Source of the DNA: Chthoniobacteraceae bacterium
Lineage (GTDB): Bacteria > Verrucomicrobiota > Verrucomicrobiia > Chthoniobacterales > Chthoniobacteraceae
Direction of reading: 5' to 3'
DNA: 51,083 bases
Assembly: GCA_947471505.1 (NCBI GenBank)
Contig: CANIWM010000042.1
Coordinates: 1-51,083, forward strand
A program made the position numbers and the translations under genes. Shown piece after piece: positions 3,101 to 43,763 of this stretch. The notes below the pieces were generated by a model. That model made no database searches, was not told the origin of the DNA, and was given only the letters and a program-made list of their open reading frames with translations. Numbering within the stretch: position 1 is the stretch's first letter; every line of letters starts with the position of its first letter.

Positions 3101-4637
3101 CCCTGCGGGGATCACGATGAACTCCACCGGCCTCATCTCCGGCACACCCACCGTTTCCGGCAACTTCGTAGTGGACGCCACCGCAACGAACCCCGGCGGC
3201 ACCGCCACGCTCCGAGTCACGATCAACATCGCCCCGCAGAACACCAGCGGCTCCGCAGCCACCGGCATCGTCGGACAAGTTTTTCAAATCTATCAAGTGA
3301 CCGTAAAGCCCGGCGACACCGGCATCAGCTTCGCACTGACCGGCACCTTGCCGAGCGGGCTCTACTTTCTCACCGACACAGGCCAAATCGTCGGCACGCC
3401 TACGATAGCGGGCGTTTTCCCCGTCACCGTCAGCGCCACGAATGCAGGCGGCACGGCGGAGCAAGCGCTCACCATCACCATCAGCCCCATCCTCACTTTC
3501 GCCAAAACCGGCGCTGGCACCGTGAGCCCGGTGCTCCCGTCCGCGAGCCAGCGCACACCCGGCGAAAGCATCACCCTTACAGCCACGCCAGCCGAAGGAG
3601 CCTTCTTCGCTGGCTGGACGGGCGACCTCCCCAGCAGCGCCCGCGTGCTCACGTTCACCATGAACACGAACCACAACGTGCAGGCCAACTTCGGTACCTA
3701 CGCCACTCTCAAAGGGTTCTACGCCGGGCTTATCCCTAACGACGCCGCCTCGGGTTTCCTCACCGTCGATGTCACCGCCAAAGGGAGCTTCAGCGCCGGG
3801 CTGGAAATAGACGGCGTCCGCGCAAAACTCCGCGCAGCCTTCGATGCCGACGGCAATTTCCACGACACGTTCCCCAACACCGCGCACACGCTCGACATGC
3901 ACCTCGGAGCGAGCGGTATCACCGGCACTCTCGGCGCCATCCCGTTCACGCTCACCCGTCCCGCATTCCAAGCCAGGATCAACGAAGCCCCACAAGCAGG
4001 CCGCTACACGCTCGCACTCCCCCTCCCCGCCGACCCGGCACTCCCGCAAGGTTACGGCTTCGCATTCGCCACCGTGAGCAACGTCGGCAGCGTCCGCCTC
4101 GACGGCACGCTCGGCGACGGCACACCATTCAGCGCCAGCGGCATCCTCACCAGCAGCGGCGACTGCGCCATCTTCGCCACTCCTTACGGCGGAAAAGGGC
4201 TCATCGCCGGGACTCTCACATTTACCGACACGCTCGACGGCTCGCTCTTCTGGGCCAAGCCTCTCATCCCAAGAGCCAAGCGGTATCCCGCCGCCTTCAC
4301 CGCCGGCCTCGCCCCCGAAGGCTCCCGCTACACCTTCCTAAAAAACACCCAAGCACTCGCATGGCCCAACGGAGCCACGCTCACCATCGACGCGCTCGAC
4401 TCTCTCCCGGCCACGCTCGGCAGCGTCACGCTCAACACGAAAAACAAACTCACCATCACGGGCGCAGCCGTCACCCTGACCCTCAACACCACCAGCGGAA
4501 CCATCACGGGCACAGTCCGAGACTCGGCCAACAAGCCTCTTCCCATCCACGGCATCCTCCTCCAAGACGAAGCGAGCATCCGCGCGCAGGTCCTGACACC
4601 CACTCACACAGGTCCCGTCGAACTCGACGCGAACTAG
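153..4637 (+). CDS. Giant secreted multidomain trypsin-like serine protease, 5' end probably lost
   Basis: The readable protein is 1494 residues. Residues 1-115 resemble a MAM/immune-inhibitor-like jelly roll, followed by a choice-of-anchor D (ASPM/SPD-2/Hydin-like) domain at about 125-235 and a Calx-beta module at about 238-345. Two related repeats (about 355-520) ending in 'GYATP' or 'GRTTP' motifs come next. A trypsin-like (S1) domain at about 535-760 shows a full triad: His570 in TAAH, Asp632 and Ser715 in GNSGGPL. After it come a further repeat, three He_PIG-type Ig modules (about 870-1115), a bacterial InlB/Flg_new-like repeat ('FFAGWTGDL', about 1185) and a beta-rich C-terminus. No signal peptide is present: the reading frame begins inside the first domain immediately after the palindromic element, and the frame upstream is closed by a TAG inside that element. 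The gene is therefore probably 5'-truncated. The stop codon overlaps the clpB stop in a shared CTAG. Confidence 0.8.
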
Positions 4638-7600
4638 CGAACGGATTTGGCAAACACGAGCGCGCCGTCGCTTTCATCCACCGTGATGGTCTCGCCTTCG
4701 AGGAATTTGCCATCGAGGATGTCGAGCGCGAGCGGGTCGAGCAGTTCGCGCTGGATGCAGCGTTTGAGCGGGCGCGCACCGTACACAGGGTCGTAGCCTT
4801 CGCGGCCAATGTGGAGCTTCGCGGCATCCGTGAGGACGAGCGTGAGCTTTTGCTCGGCGAGGCGTTTTTGCAGGCGGATGAGCTGGATTCCGACGATCTG
4901 TGCGAGGTCCGTGTCATCGAGCCGGTCGAAGATGATCGTCTCATCCACACGGTTCAGGAACTCCGGGCGGAAGTGGCCGCGCAGCGCGTCCATCACGCGG
5001 GCTTCGCGTTGCTCGCTGTTTGCATCATCGAGGATGAACTGCGAGCCGATGTTCGATGTCATGATGATGACGGTGTTTTTGAAATCCACCGTCCTCCCTT
5101 GCCCGTCCGTGATTCGCCCGTCGTCGAGCACTTGCAGCAGCACGTTGAAAACATCGCCGTGCGCCTTTTCGATCTCGTCGAAAAGCACCACCGAATACTG
5201 TTTGCGACGCACGCTCTCCGTGAGCTGTCCGCCTTCCTCAAAGCCCACGTAGCCGGGAGGCGCGCCGATGAGGCGAGCGACGCTGTGCTTCTCCATATAC
5301 TCGCTCATGTCGATGCGGATGAGCGCGTTTTCGTCGTCGAAAAGAAACTCCGCCAGCGCCTTGGAAAGCTCCGTTTTTCCCACACCCGTCGGGCCGAGGA
5401 AAATGAACGAACCAATCGGCCGGTTCGGGTCTTGCAGGCCCGAGCGCGCTCGGCGCACCGCATTCGACACCGCTTTGATGGCCTTCTTTTGGCCGATGAC
5501 GCGGTCGCCCAGCCGGCTCTCCATATTGACGAGACGTTCCCTCTCGCCTTGCTGCAAATTGGAAACGGGAATGCCCGTCCATGCCGCAACGACTTCCGCG
5601 ATTTCCTCGGCGGTGACTTCGTCGCGCAGCAAACGCCGCGTCGTTGCTGCGACGCCCTCGTCGCAGGTGGTGCCCGCGGCGCCCTCGCCGCGCTTCGAAA
5701 AGGGAACACATCCCCGAAGTCGCGGAGGCAGCGCCACCGGATTACGCCGAATGTATTCCCGATACTTCCCTGCGTGCTCCGGAGTCCGAACAATGTGATC
5801 AAAGCTCTCCTTCTGCCAAAACTCCCCACTCCTCCCGAGCACCTTGTTGATGCGGTGCGACGACACGGATTTCCACGCCTGAAACGCCCCGGAAAGCGGG
5901 TGCCCGTCCTCCGGCGTCACCAGCACATGCACATGATTCGGCATCACTACGAAATCGTGAATTCGATACTTCGTCCCATCGTCGTGTGTGAGCGTCTCCT
6001 CGACGATCTGGCGGATTTCCGGTCGCGCCAAAGCGCACTCACCCTCGCACTCATCGAGCCACTTCTCCCACCGTTCTGGAAATAACCGGTAGTATTCTTG
6101 CGCCGCAACTGGAGCCCACGGTTCGGGATGTGCCGCCACCCACTCTGCCCGCTCCGCAGCCCATTGGCGCACTTTCTCACGCGGAATAGAATCAGCGGTT
6201 CTCCACGTCACAAAATAGGTGGCTCCGTCTTGTCTCCAATGCGGCAGGGTTGTTCCGGCTACTCGGGCGATTGGTTGCTCGGGATCAAATGGGTTGAACA
6301 TCTGCGGCGAGGGCGCCGCAGGCACCACCTGCGACGAGGGCGTCGCAGCAACGGCGCGCTCCAGCCCCGGAATCACTCCATACTGCAACTCGCTCGCCCG
6401 TCCGAGATTCCCCGTGCGCTGTGCCGTCTCCAGCTCGTTTCGCGCGGCTTCGAGCTGCTCCTTCTGTTTGCGAGAAGCATCCAGCACAGCCTTTTCCTTC
6501 AGCCATTGAGCCTTCAGTCCGTTTGCCTTTTCATTCAGGTCGGCCAGCTCGCGCTCGATCTTGTGGAGTCGCTCTTTGCTCGCGGCGTCCTTCTCTTTTT
6601 TCAGCGCCTCTCGCTCCATTTCGAGCTGCATGATGGCCCTCAGCGCGACGTCGATTTCCGTCGGCATCGAGTCGATTTCCATTTTCAAACGGCTCGCCGC
6701 TTCGTCCACGAGGTCCACCGCTTTGTCCGGCAGAAAACGGTCGCTGATATACCGGTTTGAAAGCGTCGCTGCTGCGATGAGCGCGGCGTCTTGAATGCGC
6801 ACGCCGTGGTGGACTTCGTAGCGTTCCTTCAGCCCGCGCAAAATCGCGATGGTGTCCTGCACGCTCGGCTCATCCACCTTCACCGGCTGAAAGCGACGCT
6901 CCAGCGCGGGATCCTTCTCGATGTATTTGCGATACTCATCGAGCGTCGTCGCGCCCACTGTGCGCAGTTCGCCGCGGGCCAGCGCGGGCTTCAGCATGTT
7001 GCCGGCATCCATCGCGCCCTCGGATTTTCCTGCGCCGACAATCGTGTGCAGCTCGTCGATAAAAAGGATGATCTCCCCGTTGCTGTCCGTCACTTCTTTG
7101 AGGAACGCCTTCAGCCGCTCCTCGAACTCTCCGCGAAACTTCGCGCCTGCAATCATCGCTGAAATATCCATCGCCACGATGCGCTTGTTTTTCAGCGACT
7201 CGGGCACGTCGCCCGCGATGATCCGCCGTGCGAGCCCCTCGACGATTGCCGTCTTGCCGACGCCCGGTTCGCCGATGAGACACGGGTTGTTTTTCGTGCG
7301 ACGCGAGAGCACTTGCATCGTCCGGCGAATCTCGTCGTCGCGCCCGATCACCGGGTCGATTTTCCCTTTCCGCGCCAGCTCCGTAAGGTCGCGGCCATAC
7401 TTCTCCAGCGTCTGATATTTGCCCTCGGGATTCTGGTCCGTCACCCGCTGCGAACCGCGCACCTCCTTCAGCGCCGCCATCATTTTGGAATGAGTGACGC
7501 CTGCCGTCTTCAGCAGCCTACCCACGCTCACGCCGCTATCCGCGAGCGCGAGGAGGTAGTGCTCCACGCTCACGAACTCGTCCTTCAGCGCTGCCATCTG

Positions 7601-7888
7601 CTTCTCCGCTGCGCGCAAAATCGCCATCGCCTCCGCCGCCACATTCGTCTGCGACGTCAGCCCATGGACCTGCGCCCGACTCGCGATCGCCGCGTTCAAT
7701 TGCTCCCGCAACGGCGCGACCGCCACGCCCAGCTTTTGCAACAGCGGCACCGCGATTCCATCGGCCTGGTCGAGCACCGCGAGCAGGATGTGCTCATTGT
7801 CAAATTCAGCGTGATTCCGGTCCTGCGCCAGCGTCTGGGCGGCTTGGACGGCTTCGGTCATCTTTTGGGTGAATTTGTTAGCGTTCAT
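4634..7888 (-). CDS. clpB: ClpB disaggregase with an in-frame RAYT transposase insertion
   Basis: Hsp100 AAA+ disaggregase that works with DnaK to extract polypeptides from aggregates in the cytoplasm. Visible: the N-terminal repeat domain, NBD1 Walker A GEPGVGKT at about 206-213 and Walker B 'LFIDELH', the coiled-coil middle domain ending '[12 protein letters not shown]', then NBD2 with Walker A GPTGVGKT at about 830-837, '[10 protein letters not shown]' and a complete C-terminus. Length is 1084 residues against about 860 for the family. The excess is residues 513 to about 750, a complete Rep-associated tyrosine transposase plus linkers, placed where E. coli ClpB has a variable loop before 'RLLRNKVT' (here 'RRLLRDEVT'). 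No frameshift or stop is present. The start at 7888 ([10 protein letters not shown]) matches the family; a further upstream ATG would add 30 unrelated residues. Convergent with the protease gene, stops overlapping. Whether the chimera is made and active is unknown. Confidence 0.95.
5643..5693. repeat. Left REP-like hairpin doublet of the RAYT element
   Basis: Two tandem hairpins. The outer one is CTGCGACG-CCCT-CGTCGCAG (5647-5666). The 7-nt spacer GTGGTGC follows, then CGCGGCG-CCCT-CGCCGCG (5675-5692). Both have a CCCT tetraloop. Compared with the right end, the inner stem has a T-A pair changed to C-G, so pairing is kept. Likely recognition and cleavage site of the RAYT. Confidence 0.8.
6302..6352. 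repeat. Right REP-like hairpin doublet of the RAYT element
   Basis: Inverted copy of the left end: CTGCGGCG-AGGG-CGCCGCAG (6302-6321), spacer GCACCAC, then CTGCGACG-AGGG-CGTCGCAG (6329-6348). Both stems are perfect over 8 bp. It lies just upstream of the transposase ATG at 6301 and is translated as an Ala/Thr/Ser/Pro-rich linker within ClpB. Confidence 0.8.
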
Positions 7889-8130
7889 CGGTATGGAGTA
7901 TCGTGCGCCAACCCTTCGCAGGATGCACGCCGTCACTTGTTCAGAGACGCCCCTCGCTTGCCTGTGCCACGGTGGCACGACCCGCCGTCACTCTGCCCGC
8001 AGGACAGTCGCGAGTTGGCGCACCGCACCGAGCACGCTCGCGCCCAGCACCACCCGCATCCCCTGCCCCACTCTCGCTGACGCGGGCAGGATCGAGGGAA
8101 AAACCCGTCCCTCTCTGACGCCAACGCGGA

Positions 8131-8683
8131 GTACCGGGTAGCAAGCCCGATTTACCGGCCTCGGAGCATGCCGTACCGCTCCCAGCGCCCGCAGTACCAC
8201 CTCCAGAGGGCGCTGTACCCGGCGCCCGGCGCAAAGTACCGGCCCCGGCGGAAAAAGTACCGCCTCCACCGTCAAACGTACCGCTCCCGCCAGCCAGGGT
8301 ACCGCCCCCAAAACACGCGGTACCGCCTCCCAAGCGCGAAGTACCTGGTACTTCACGCGCCGGGAGCGGTACTTTGCCCGCCGGACCCGGTACTGCGCGC
8401 AGCGGGAGCGGTACTTTGCGCTCTGGAGGCCGTAATTTCGCCGCCTCCCTCGGTCAACCGCGCACCAGCGCCAGTAAACCGCCCGCCCCCATCCGTCACC
8501 TCCGCGTAAGACCCGGCAAAGCACGCACCCCTCCCAGTCCAACCCACACCTCCGCCGGTAAGACGCCCACCGGGAGCAGTGGAGCCGCCTCCGCGCCCGG
8601 TACCGCAGACATCGGGCGCGGTACACCGCGCGCCAGACCGAGTGGCACCCGCAATGGAAGCAGCAAACCCCGCGCAGAACTCG
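8131..8683. repeat. 21-bp phased tandem array with internal inversion
   Basis: A GTAC (or one-base variant) recurs at exactly 21-bp steps: 8131, 8152, 8173, 8194, 8215, 8236, 8257, 8278, 8299, 8320, 8341. A single 7-bp jump to 8348 follows, and then 8369, 8390, 8411, 8432, 8453, 8474, 8495, with weaker matches continuing through 8537, 8558, 8600, 8621 and 8663. Left-arm units read AAAGTACCG and right-arm units read CGGTACTTT, so the array is roughly inverted around GAAGTACC-T-GGTACTTC (8338-8354). Unit interiors are strongly diverged but phase is kept. All frames give only Pro/Arg or Gly/Thr heptads, so I treat it as non-coding. The flank 7889-8130 up to clpB shows nothing recognisable. Confidence 0.8.
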
Positions 8684-8740
8684 GCCCCGCATTTGACGCA
8701 GATTGCTGGATGTGCAAGCTTCGCGACCATGCCGGAACCG

Positions 8741-9349
8741 ATGCCAAAAATTCCAGAAGACCCCGCGCTGCGACTCGCGCTCGCCTGTGAGTTCCTCGCC
8801 ATCCTTGCAGCGGCGAAGTCAGACGACGATGTTACCGGCTGGCTGAAAACGAACACCCCGAGATTGGGCGATGCACTGGCGATTGCAGAGCTTGCTGCGG
8901 AGCAATGCACACCGGGCTCTCAATGGGAGGTAGTGAATGCGCGCGCGACTCACATTGCACAATTCCTCCGCGCAGAGTTCACAAAGAGCGAAAACTTCAC
9001 CCGCGCGCATGGCGAGCGCGACCTGTTCGGAGCAATTCGGCGGATCATTTACGAAATGACGGAATCGGGCGACATGCCCGAGGACTGGGAGACACGGGAG
9101 GGCTGCAAGTTTTCCGCATCCCGGTGGATGACGGAGTTTTTCGAGGCCATGGGCGACAAAATCAGCGCAAGCAAAGAAGGCGACCTCGGCGGCGAGCGGC
9201 TGGCATTGCTCCGCGCCTACGAGTGCATCGAAACCGCAATGGACCGCGTGCTCACCCTGCCCCCCGAAGAACGTGCCGCCTACCTGCCCATCGTCGAGCC
9301 CCTCTACAGCGGCTACATGGCGAACCGGAAAAAGAACCTCGGGGAATAG
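8741..9349 (+). CDS. Hypothetical protein
   Basis: Not recognised. 202 residues from the chosen ATG (MPKIPEDPALRL). An ATG four codons upstream and others inside the preceding array are alternatives, but the sequence there is Pro-rich repeat translation and so unlikely to be native. The protein looks globular and mainly alpha-helical, acidic, without signal peptide or membrane segment. It ends 'YSGYMANRKKNLGE'. It starts directly after the 21-bp array. Codon use and amino-acid composition are normal for the window, which supports a real gene. Confidence 0.65.
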   Translation: MPKIPEDPALRLALACEFLAILAAAKSDDDVTGWLKTNTPRLGDALAIAELAAEQCTPGSQWEVVNARATHIAQFLRAEFTKSENFTRAHGERDLFGAIRRIIYEMTESGDMPEDWETREGCKFSASRWMTEFFEAMGDKISASKEGDLGGERLALLRAYECIETAMDRVLTLPPEERAAYLPIVEPLYSGYMANRKKNLGE

Positions 9350-9713: not shown

Positions 9714-10643
9714 ATGTTGGAATCATTTGACTTCGAATTGGGCCGCACGGGGTCTTTCCTTGCGGCGATGAATCAAATCGCGACGTTTCGCCCGGATGGA
9801 CGGACGCCAGTGATGGTGGGGACGATGTATGGCGCTGCCGATGGCGTCCGAACGGCATACATCGGCGCTAACGTGTCCGTCACGCAGACGAGTGGTGCGG
9901 TGGATGTGGCGTGGGCGGAGGTCCATGATGCGAGCGTGCGCGTCACGGGGGCAATGCGCAGTTTGTACCGCAAAGATGCGGCGAGTTTGCGCATGATCGA
10001 TTCGCTCCCGACGCAGGATCAATCGCGCGAGGAGATCAAAAAGCGCGCAGACCTGCTCTCGGCGACGTGGGCGAAGCTGCCTCTGCCGCCCCCGCCATAT
10101 CCGGTGCCGCCGGGGCCGGGACCGCATTATGTGGAACCTTACGCGGGGATGACGATGCTGGTTTATCTCGGGCTGGTCGCCTCGGCGCGGTCGCTGGAAA
10201 GCACGGTGCCGATTGTGGATTCGGAGTTTGAGAAGCAGGAGGGGCTGCTGCATGAGGAGGAGGTGATTTTGCGGGACTTCAATGTGGCGGCGCGCTCGCA
10301 AGGGCTGGCGCAGTTTACGGAGGGGTGGGAGCACGAGGTGATCGAGGCGATCCCGACGGAGCCGCCGTCGCTGCCGCCGTCGAAAGGGGAGATCGCGAGC
10401 GTGGAGGCACCGGGAGGTCCGCTGATCCAGGTGCGTGTGACTTCGGCACGGGCGAGTAAGTTCCGGCTGGAGGGAAAGGGGCCGGGCGGCATGGTGTTTG
10501 TGGTGTTGGTGGAGTCGTGGCCGACGGTGCGGATCCCTTGCACGCTGCCGATGGTGGGCGCATGGACGCTGCGTGTGCGCGGGGAAAATGCGAAGGGTGA
10601 AGGAGAGTGGAGCGATGAGTTCGCGGTGACGGTGCCTGCGTAG
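9714..10643 (+). CDS. Hypothetical protein with C-terminal beta-sandwich-like region
   Basis: Not recognised. 309 residues from ATG 9714 (MLESFDFELGRTG). An in-frame region upstream overlaps repeat-like sequence and was left out. The middle holds a Pro-rich stretch (about 120-140, 'LPPPPYPVPPGPG'). The last 90 residues ('IQVRVTSARASKFRLEG' to 'GEWSDEFAVTVPA') look like a fibronectin type III-like module. No signal peptide or membrane span. The next gene follows on the same strand after 147 bp. Function unknown. Confidence 0.7.
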   Translation: MLESFDFELGRTGSFLAAMNQIATFRPDGRTPVMVGTMYGAADGVRTAYIGANVSVTQTSGAVDVAWAEVHDASVRVTGAMRSLYRKDAASLRMIDSLPTQDQSREEIKKRADLLSATWAKLPLPPPPYPVPPGPGPHYVEPYAGMTMLVYLGLVASARSLESTVPIVDSEFEKQEGLLHEEEVILRDFNVAARSQGLAQFTEGWEHEVIEAIPTEPPSLPPSKGEIASVEAPGGPLIQVRVTSARASKFRLEGKGPGGMVFVVLVESWPTVRIPCTLPMVGAWTLRVRGENAKGEGEWSDEFAVTVPA

Positions 10644-42983: not shown

Positions 42984-43319
42984 CTACACCCGCACCACGC
43001 CGCAGCCGAAGTCCACCTCCAGCGCCGTCTCCGTCCGGCGCACCACGATGTCGGGCGAGAGGCGGTAAAGCAGACGCCGCCCGTCCTGCGGATTCTCCTC
43101 CGTCACCACGAGCTTTGCCGCCCGCAAGGCGACGAGGTGTTTCAGGGTTCCATCGAGACGCTTGCGCGATGACATCATCAACTGCGAAGCCGTCTGGCGA
43201 GGCGTCGCCGCCAGCGAGAGCAGCAGACGGCGGCGGGTCGGTTCACCCAGCGCGGCGAAGACCAAATCGGGATCCCAGCGCGGAGGCTGCGGAGCGGAAA
43301 TAGGAGTCGAATCACTCAT
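42984..43319 (-). CDS. Small winged-helix (ArsR-like) transcriptional regulator
   Basis: 111 residues from MSDSTPISAP. A winged-helix core is visible: 'VFAALGEPTRRRLLLSLAA' as in ArsR regulators, a recognition helix region 'TASQLMMSSRKRLDGTLKHLVALRAAKLV', and a wing 'DGRRLLYRLSPDI'. No metal-binding ELCVCDL motif. The target is unknown; the DUF3592 gene ends about 107 bp away on the opposite strand. Longer versions of the frame would run into the repeat array, so the short start is preferred. Confidence 0.7.
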   Translation of the reverse strand: MSDSTPISAPQPPRWDPDLVFAALGEPTRRRLLLSLAATPRQTASQLMMSSRKRLDGTLKHLVALRAAKLVVTEENPQDGRRLLYRLSPDIVVRRTETALEVDFGCGVVRV

Positions 43320-43343
43320 ACTTAAACCCATGCCACACCTCCC

Positions 43344-43763
43344 GAAGCTCCGCAACCTCGCGGACACGTCCGTTTTCACCCGGCGGAAGCTCGGCTCGAT
43401 GAAAACCACATCCATCCCGACGCAGCATTCGCTCCCCGAGGCGAAAACCACCCGCCTTTCGCCCTGGCCAAGTCTCCCCCATCCGGGCGGAAAAGTCGGC
43501 GCAACCCGACGGAGCCTCGCCAACCTCGCAACCACGATCGGCCCGGCCCGGAGTTAGCTCCCCTACCCCGCCAACAGAGACGGCGCAATCCACCCGAGCC
43601 TCCCAACAAGCGCACCCACTCCGGATTCAGACCAAGGGAGCCTCCCGACAAGCGCAGCCACTCCGCAATCAGATCGTGGGAGCCTCCCGACAAGCGCAGC
43701 CACTCCGGAATCGAGTCGCCCGAGACTCCCTTCCCTCAGCCGAAGAGTCCGCACGGACTCACC
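43344..43763. repeat. 42-bp phased tandem array
   Basis: A short motif (GAGCCTCCC and variants such as GAAGCTCCG, AAGTCTCCC) recurs at exactly 42-bp steps: 43344, 43386, 43428, 43470, 43512, 43554, 43596, 43638, 43680 and 43722. The last three full units are nearly identical over ACAAGCGCAGCCACTCCG; the earlier ones are highly diverged but keep phase without indels. All three minus-strand frames are partly open, none convincingly coding. The remaining bases to 43820 show nothing else. Confidence 0.8.

Follow-up and report, generated by a model that had tools for sequence, protein, structure and literature searches.

The window analysed here, a stretch of 51,083 nucleotides from the genome of a Chthoniobacteraceae bacterium (contig CANIWM010000042.1), contains a non-coding array (8131-8640) in which a GTACC core recurs at a 21-bp step and reverses its orientation at a central palindrome. 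We consider the array probably to be a site at which a DNA-binding protein assembles cooperatively along one face of the helix. The left arm (8131-8340, plus strand), delimited by phase analysis, is made up of ten 21-bp units with the consensus GTACCGCCYCCVVMGCSCRAA, which was built from 50 left units of five arrays. GTAC is found at 8131, 8173, 8194, 8215, 8236, 8257, 8278, 8299, 8320 and 8341, all equal to 4 modulo 21, and the unit at 8152 reads TTAC instead. The exact 21-bp step over about ten units reported in the initial annotation of this DNA is therefore confirmed. The inversion centre (8338-8354, no strand assigned) reads GAAGTACC-T-GGTACTTC and forms the palindrome GAAGTACCTGGTACTTC, at which the phase changes by exactly 7 bp. 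Rightwards of it, GTAC lies at 8348, 8369, 8390, 8411, 8600 and 8621, all equal to 11 modulo 21; the earlier claim of a 7-bp shift followed by a 21-bp step in inverted orientation was correct and, if anything, understated. The proximal right arm (8347-8430, minus strand) contains four inverted units (GGTACT....). It is followed by a distal part (8431-8640, minus strand) of about ten diverged units in unchanged phase, identified in part from a unit-by-unit alignment against three related arrays. GTAC is absent between 8430 and 8600, where the core has decayed to GTAA, GTCA, GTCC and the like; the GT phase is retained through this segment, so the array extends to about 8640, terminating with the GTAC at 8600 and 8621. 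Of the 14 units that make up the right part as a whole, 13 have GT at the phase position. Membership of 8641-8683 in the array is not clear.

The autocorrelation proposed as a check gave an identity of 0.53 at lag 21 compared with about 0.30 at other lags, the top 21-bp signal of the whole window. GTACC pairs spaced 21 bp apart, with one mismatch allowed, number 20 against 0.66 expected and a maximum of 3 in shuffled sequence, which excludes a chance origin of the spacing. The phase of GTAC is constant modulo 21 on either side of the centre, as expected of helical phasing. Adjacent left-arm units are about 60% identical, unlike the near-identical units of a young VNTR or minisatellite.

A search for similar arrays, also proposed earlier, found two more, located on contigs C53 and C56 of the present genome (153 contigs, 6.07 Mb in all), each with an identical centre. 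With the search patterns used, these are the only three GTACC arrays in the draft of about 6 Mb. Among ten members of the genus, GTACC arrays occur in three (the present genome, G032 and G025), and the triple-GTACC pattern is absent from the other seven genomes, bar one isolated match in G028. A four-unit GTACC pattern run across all genomes says little about the distribution of the arrays, since the matches listed span many unrelated phyla and include coding repeats. The array beside clpB is orthologous in the three species, with clpB flanks 91-94% identical in G032 and 81% identical in G025, and the C56 array is orthologous to one on contig C48 of G032 (7.3 kb of flank at 93%). The C56 and clpB arrays are themselves unit-for-unit relatives (68% identity, ten left units each), and the mutual similarity of the five GTACC arrays tested ranges from 0.64 to 0.86. 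The core of the centre, GTACC-N-GGTA(C), is retained in all eight related arrays, two of which read GGTAA. Centre, ten left units and a boundary box are common to the clpB locus in three species and the second locus in two. The array was copied as a block without its neighbouring genes, and the variants common to C42 and C14 as against C56 and C48 place the copying before the split of the two species.

The boundary box, CTCTGA (8113-8118, plus strand), is the start of a conserved CTCTGACGCCAACGCGGA just outside the left arm, and CTCTGT or CTCTGA stands at the matching position in four related arrays. Of 36 arrays examined, 14 have CTCTG[TA] close to their outer edge against 2.9 expected, a count in which the five clpB/C56-type arrays are mutually related. 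The box also recurs at the outer edges of arrays that are otherwise unrelated in sequence.

Comparison of orthologs separates the core from the rest of the unit. Between the left arms of the present species and G025, GTACC differs at 1 of 50 positions and the unit interiors at 74 of 160 (p=2e-10); for two closer ortholog pairs the figures are 4 of 100 and 66 of 320 (p=2.5e-5), both p-values being too small because orthologs are not independent. Third codon positions of clpB have diverged by 36% in G025 (19% in the closer species), which means that nearly neutral sites evolve no faster than the unit interior. In four pairwise alignments of about 62-85% identity, the indels that fall within the arrays measure exactly 21 bp, and the remaining gaps lie at or beyond the array ends. 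Random indels, which the initial annotation had named (for sister strains) as grounds for abandoning its reading, were not seen in these alignments. These comparisons support selection on the GTACC core and the 21-bp spacing, with the rest of the unit apparently released from it. The earlier suggestion that spacing is what is selected consequently holds for the 21-bp indels and the free interior, but it missed the core, which appears to be selected too.

To the left, the array faces a divergent clpB gene (4634-7888, minus strand, identified through Pfam), which is also the neighbour of the orthologous array in G032 and G025. In the window, clpB is interrupted by an in-frame insertion of a RAYT-type IS200-like transposase (5629-6368; Y1_Tnp, E=2.7e-7) that has inverted REP sequences on its flanks. 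The insertion leaves the reading frame unbroken (an ORF of 1114 aa) and is missing from clpB of G032. A REP-like sequence resembling these flanks lies inside an open RND efflux gene at another locus (L052, 13090-13147). To the right, a hypothetical gene (8654-9349, plus strand) is a later insertion between the array and the next gene: it has no counterpart in any other genome of the genus and is absent at the G025 locus. Being confined to the present genome, it was rejected as a partner of the array. The next gene (9714-10643, plus strand) encodes a helical protein with an FN3-like C-terminus; its own structure model is poor and of low confidence. Its G025 ortholog (L076, 2109-3038) is the first gene right of the array, and because of this ancestral neighbour we place the clpB-locus array in a group with arrays of other sequence (L098, L111, L116, L139 and L144) that lie in front of genes whose small protein products combine a helical N-terminus with an FN3-like C-terminus. 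For one FN3-tailed family beside such arrays, a structure model and fold search predicted an FN3 domain joined to a bundle of helices and revealed no recognisable DNA-binding fold, and we set the family aside as candidate DNA-binding proteins.

The array belongs to a wider class. We surveyed periods in about 400-451 kb of the present genome and 259 kb of two relatives, and found that long non-coding tandem arrays in this sample have periods of mostly 21, 42 or 63 bp and unit sequences that are unrelated. Other periods include 69, 36 and 18 bp, and those of 69 bp probably represent coding regions for leucine-rich repeats. Two of the arrays precede ArsR-like winged-helix genes, one on contig C100 and the other in the window itself (43338-43730, minus strand; period 42 bp, or 2 x 21). 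The latter is directly upstream of a winged-helix (ArsR/HTH_20-like) gene (42984-43319, minus strand), which matched our profile A2 at E=3.4e-27 and Pfam HTH_20 weakly at E=0.029. The G025 ortholog of this gene also has a related array upstream.

Many arrays of the class lie directly upstream of genes of this kind. The winged-helix family was searched through the genus and the order, with 600 bp scored on each side, and Pfam assigns HTH_20 or HTH_5 to several members. A multiple of 21 was the top upstream lag in 21 of the 25 best homologs, counted by hand, compared with 2 of 25 downstream; of the other four, two are within 1 bp of a multiple of 21 (43 and 64) and two are without an array. Ordinary ORFs of the present genome have such upstream regions in 48 of 258 cases (19%; p=6e-11). 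Strong upstream arrays (identity at least 0.50) precede 18 of the 25 winged-helix genes and 5 of the 258 ordinary ORFs (p=1e-18). Both p-values are too small, since orthologs and paralogs are counted separately; about 13-15 of the winged-helix arrays look independent in sequence in our judgement. ArsR-type homologs of other genera, which gave weaker matches, lack arrays.

The sequence of the array differs between winged-helix genes and tracks the regulator: the eight most similar array pairs all belong to proteins at least 56% identical, and array-consensus and protein similarity correlate with a Spearman coefficient of 0.34 over 276 pairs that are not independent. The simplest reading is that each winged-helix protein binds its own array. 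Two loci of one genome (L146 and L154; G000, contigs C35 and C109) encode winged-helix proteins that are 99% identical, and their upstream arrays are only about 55% alike; the two consensuses rank eighth of the 276 pairs by similarity. Indels of 42 bp separate the orthologous winged-helix arrays of C32 and G025:C213, and small indels that are not multiples of 21, mostly outside the array proper, occur in the ortholog pair C54 and G032:C113.

Taken with this class, the evidence favors cooperative binding, which had been one of several options in the initial annotation and is now the best supported of them. Arrays of equal period precede winged-helix genes, and from this we infer that a protein binds the GTACC array and does so cooperatively. 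Each 21-bp unit would offer one recognition core, GTACC, and a weaker YCC about one turn on, so that protein subunits could sit side by side along one helix face. The arms would meet tail to tail at the palindromic centre, where a symmetric dimer might sit and from which binding might spread. With many weak sites in phase, the outcome would be a strong, switch-like nucleoprotein complex, for which selection would keep the core and the phase and not the rest of the unit. Some observations count against this reading. Some members of the genus have arrays of near-identical units, as slippage alone would give. The search for a GTACC-binding protein found none: the GTACC arrays have no winged-helix neighbour gene and so do not hold the position of arrays beside their own regulator, and matching their consensus to the winged-helix arrays gave nothing above background, the best correlation (0.42) being at the level of unrelated arrays. 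Finally, the GTACC array of G025:C91 lies where a porin gene and a DUF7486 gene converge, not at a promoter, so GTACC arrays cannot all act as promoter elements. A protein that binds the GTACC type may be encoded at an unlinked locus and may control or organise the surroundings of the array, here the divergent clpB and the FN3-tailed gene, while the winged-helix proteins would autoregulate through their own arrays. As a tentative general architecture, possible but short of an even chance, we propose that the winged-helix family has expanded and that every member is served by a separate chromosomal array of weak sites phased at two turns; array and protein would diverge together with the 21-bp register kept, and the GTACC arrays would be a form that lacks a regulator next to it, copied to new loci as whole blocks and bound in trans.

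Alternatively, the GTACC arrays could be scattered landmarks to which a protein of the nucleoid, bridging or partition kind binds, and the expression of their neighbours would not depend on them directly. We regard a chromosome-organising or segregation site of this sort as unlikely. The several dispersed copies per genome, their unrelated neighbours and the one copy between convergent genes speak for it, and plasmid centromere arrays operate likewise (PMC5016525). Against it, the patterns used found only three arrays in a 6-Mb draft and arrays in only three of ten genus members, and most other arrays of the class stand in front of genes from particular families, a placement not predicted for mere landmarks. 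It is less probable still that the array is an ordinary minisatellite, one that slippage or unequal exchange generated with a preference for 21-bp units and that decays neutrally, has no function and stays regular because indels are rare. Whole units have been gained and lost, and the genus does contain young arrays of near-identical units of other sequence; however, neutral decay or homogenisation of units would not spare five bases per unit while the interior diverges like neutral sites, and the association with the regulator family is strictly one-sided. In G029 and G033 (L082-L089, L111 and L116), such near-identical units of 21 bp, one example being CCATGGAGGCGGGAGATGAGT, occur at several loci, some at contig ends, which suggests that they break assemblies.

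An RNA-level element, in which the transcribed array would form a long hairpin between left and right arms that attenuates or stabilises transcripts, is very improbable. The central 215 nt fold at -112 kcal/mol with a z-score of -7 against shuffles, but inverted repeats fold well by construction and the score follows from the inversion. Opposing units of G025:C91 match at 10.3 of 16 positions compared with 7.7 for non-opposing units, yet arm matching in the clpB-type arrays revealed no special complementarity (opposing and non-opposing interiors 8.25 and 8.33 in C42, 8.0 and 10.2 in C56). A covariance-model search of Rfam was without match up to E=1, and pairing has no need of a 21-bp period; on the fold z-score, arm matching and Rfam search together, we rejected the hairpin. 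Least probable of all is the decayed heptad-coding repeat of the initial annotation, a 7-residue repeat protein (VPxPxxK, frame +0) encoded now or in the past: frame +0 is stop-free in the five clpB-type arrays and indels are all multiples of three, but across the frames of eight arrays, their start codons and a modulo-3 substitution test, the left arm lacks an opening ATG, GTG or TTG in the frame that is free of stops, substitutions have no codon-position bias in any frame, stops interrupt frame +0 in the three other arrays, a GC-rich, T-poor composition alone yields few stops, and the third base A of GTA is retained in 49 of 50 units, so that valine would always be GTA in a GC-rich genome, which protein-level selection does not explain.

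Several known systems resemble the proposed cooperative array. Plasmid iterons are direct repeats, each roughly two helical turns long, to which Rep proteins of winged-helix type bind in phase; the present arrays differ in their inverted halves and dispersed copies, and we found no Rep gene or replication origin adjoining the array. In the type Ib partition system of pSM19035, omega/parS, runs of 7-10 adjoining iterons, some direct and some inverted, overlap promoters, and the omega repressor coats these iterons as a helix with an affinity set by iteron number (PMC5016525). The array shares with omega/parS its contiguous repeat units in direct and inverted orientation, but is chromosomal, has a 21-bp unit and belongs with winged-helix genes. 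Omega, by comparison, is a plasmid ribbon-helix-helix protein that acts on 7-bp heptads. TubR of the type III plasmid partition system TubR/tubC is a small winged-helix protein whose binding sites are direct repeats in front of its own operon; it represses this operon and assembles on DNA into a filament or a ring (PMC5016525). The present arrays have another repeat unit and go with another protein family, their copies are many, chromosomal and of differing sequence, and there is no TubZ-like GTPase among the ORFs read beside the GTACC arrays. REP/BIME elements with their RAYT transposases are likewise dispersed, non-coding and repetitive, and a RAYT with inverted REPs lies in the nearby clpB; the present units, however, are not palindromes, keep a strict 21-bp period and are unrelated in sequence to REPs. 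By analogy, the array may work like omega/parS and TubR/tubC, although we do not claim membership in either. We found no description of such arrays in the part of the open-access literature covered.

If the cooperative-array reading is right, it would account for a striking non-coding component of these genomes, and the 21-bp register would serve as a predictor for finding cognate regulators and their operators. These bacteria would then hold a natural series of array-protein pairs with one register and different sequences, in which one could test directly what helical phase, site number and weak specificity jointly contribute to building a regulatory nucleoprotein complex, and by what steps such a complex evolves.
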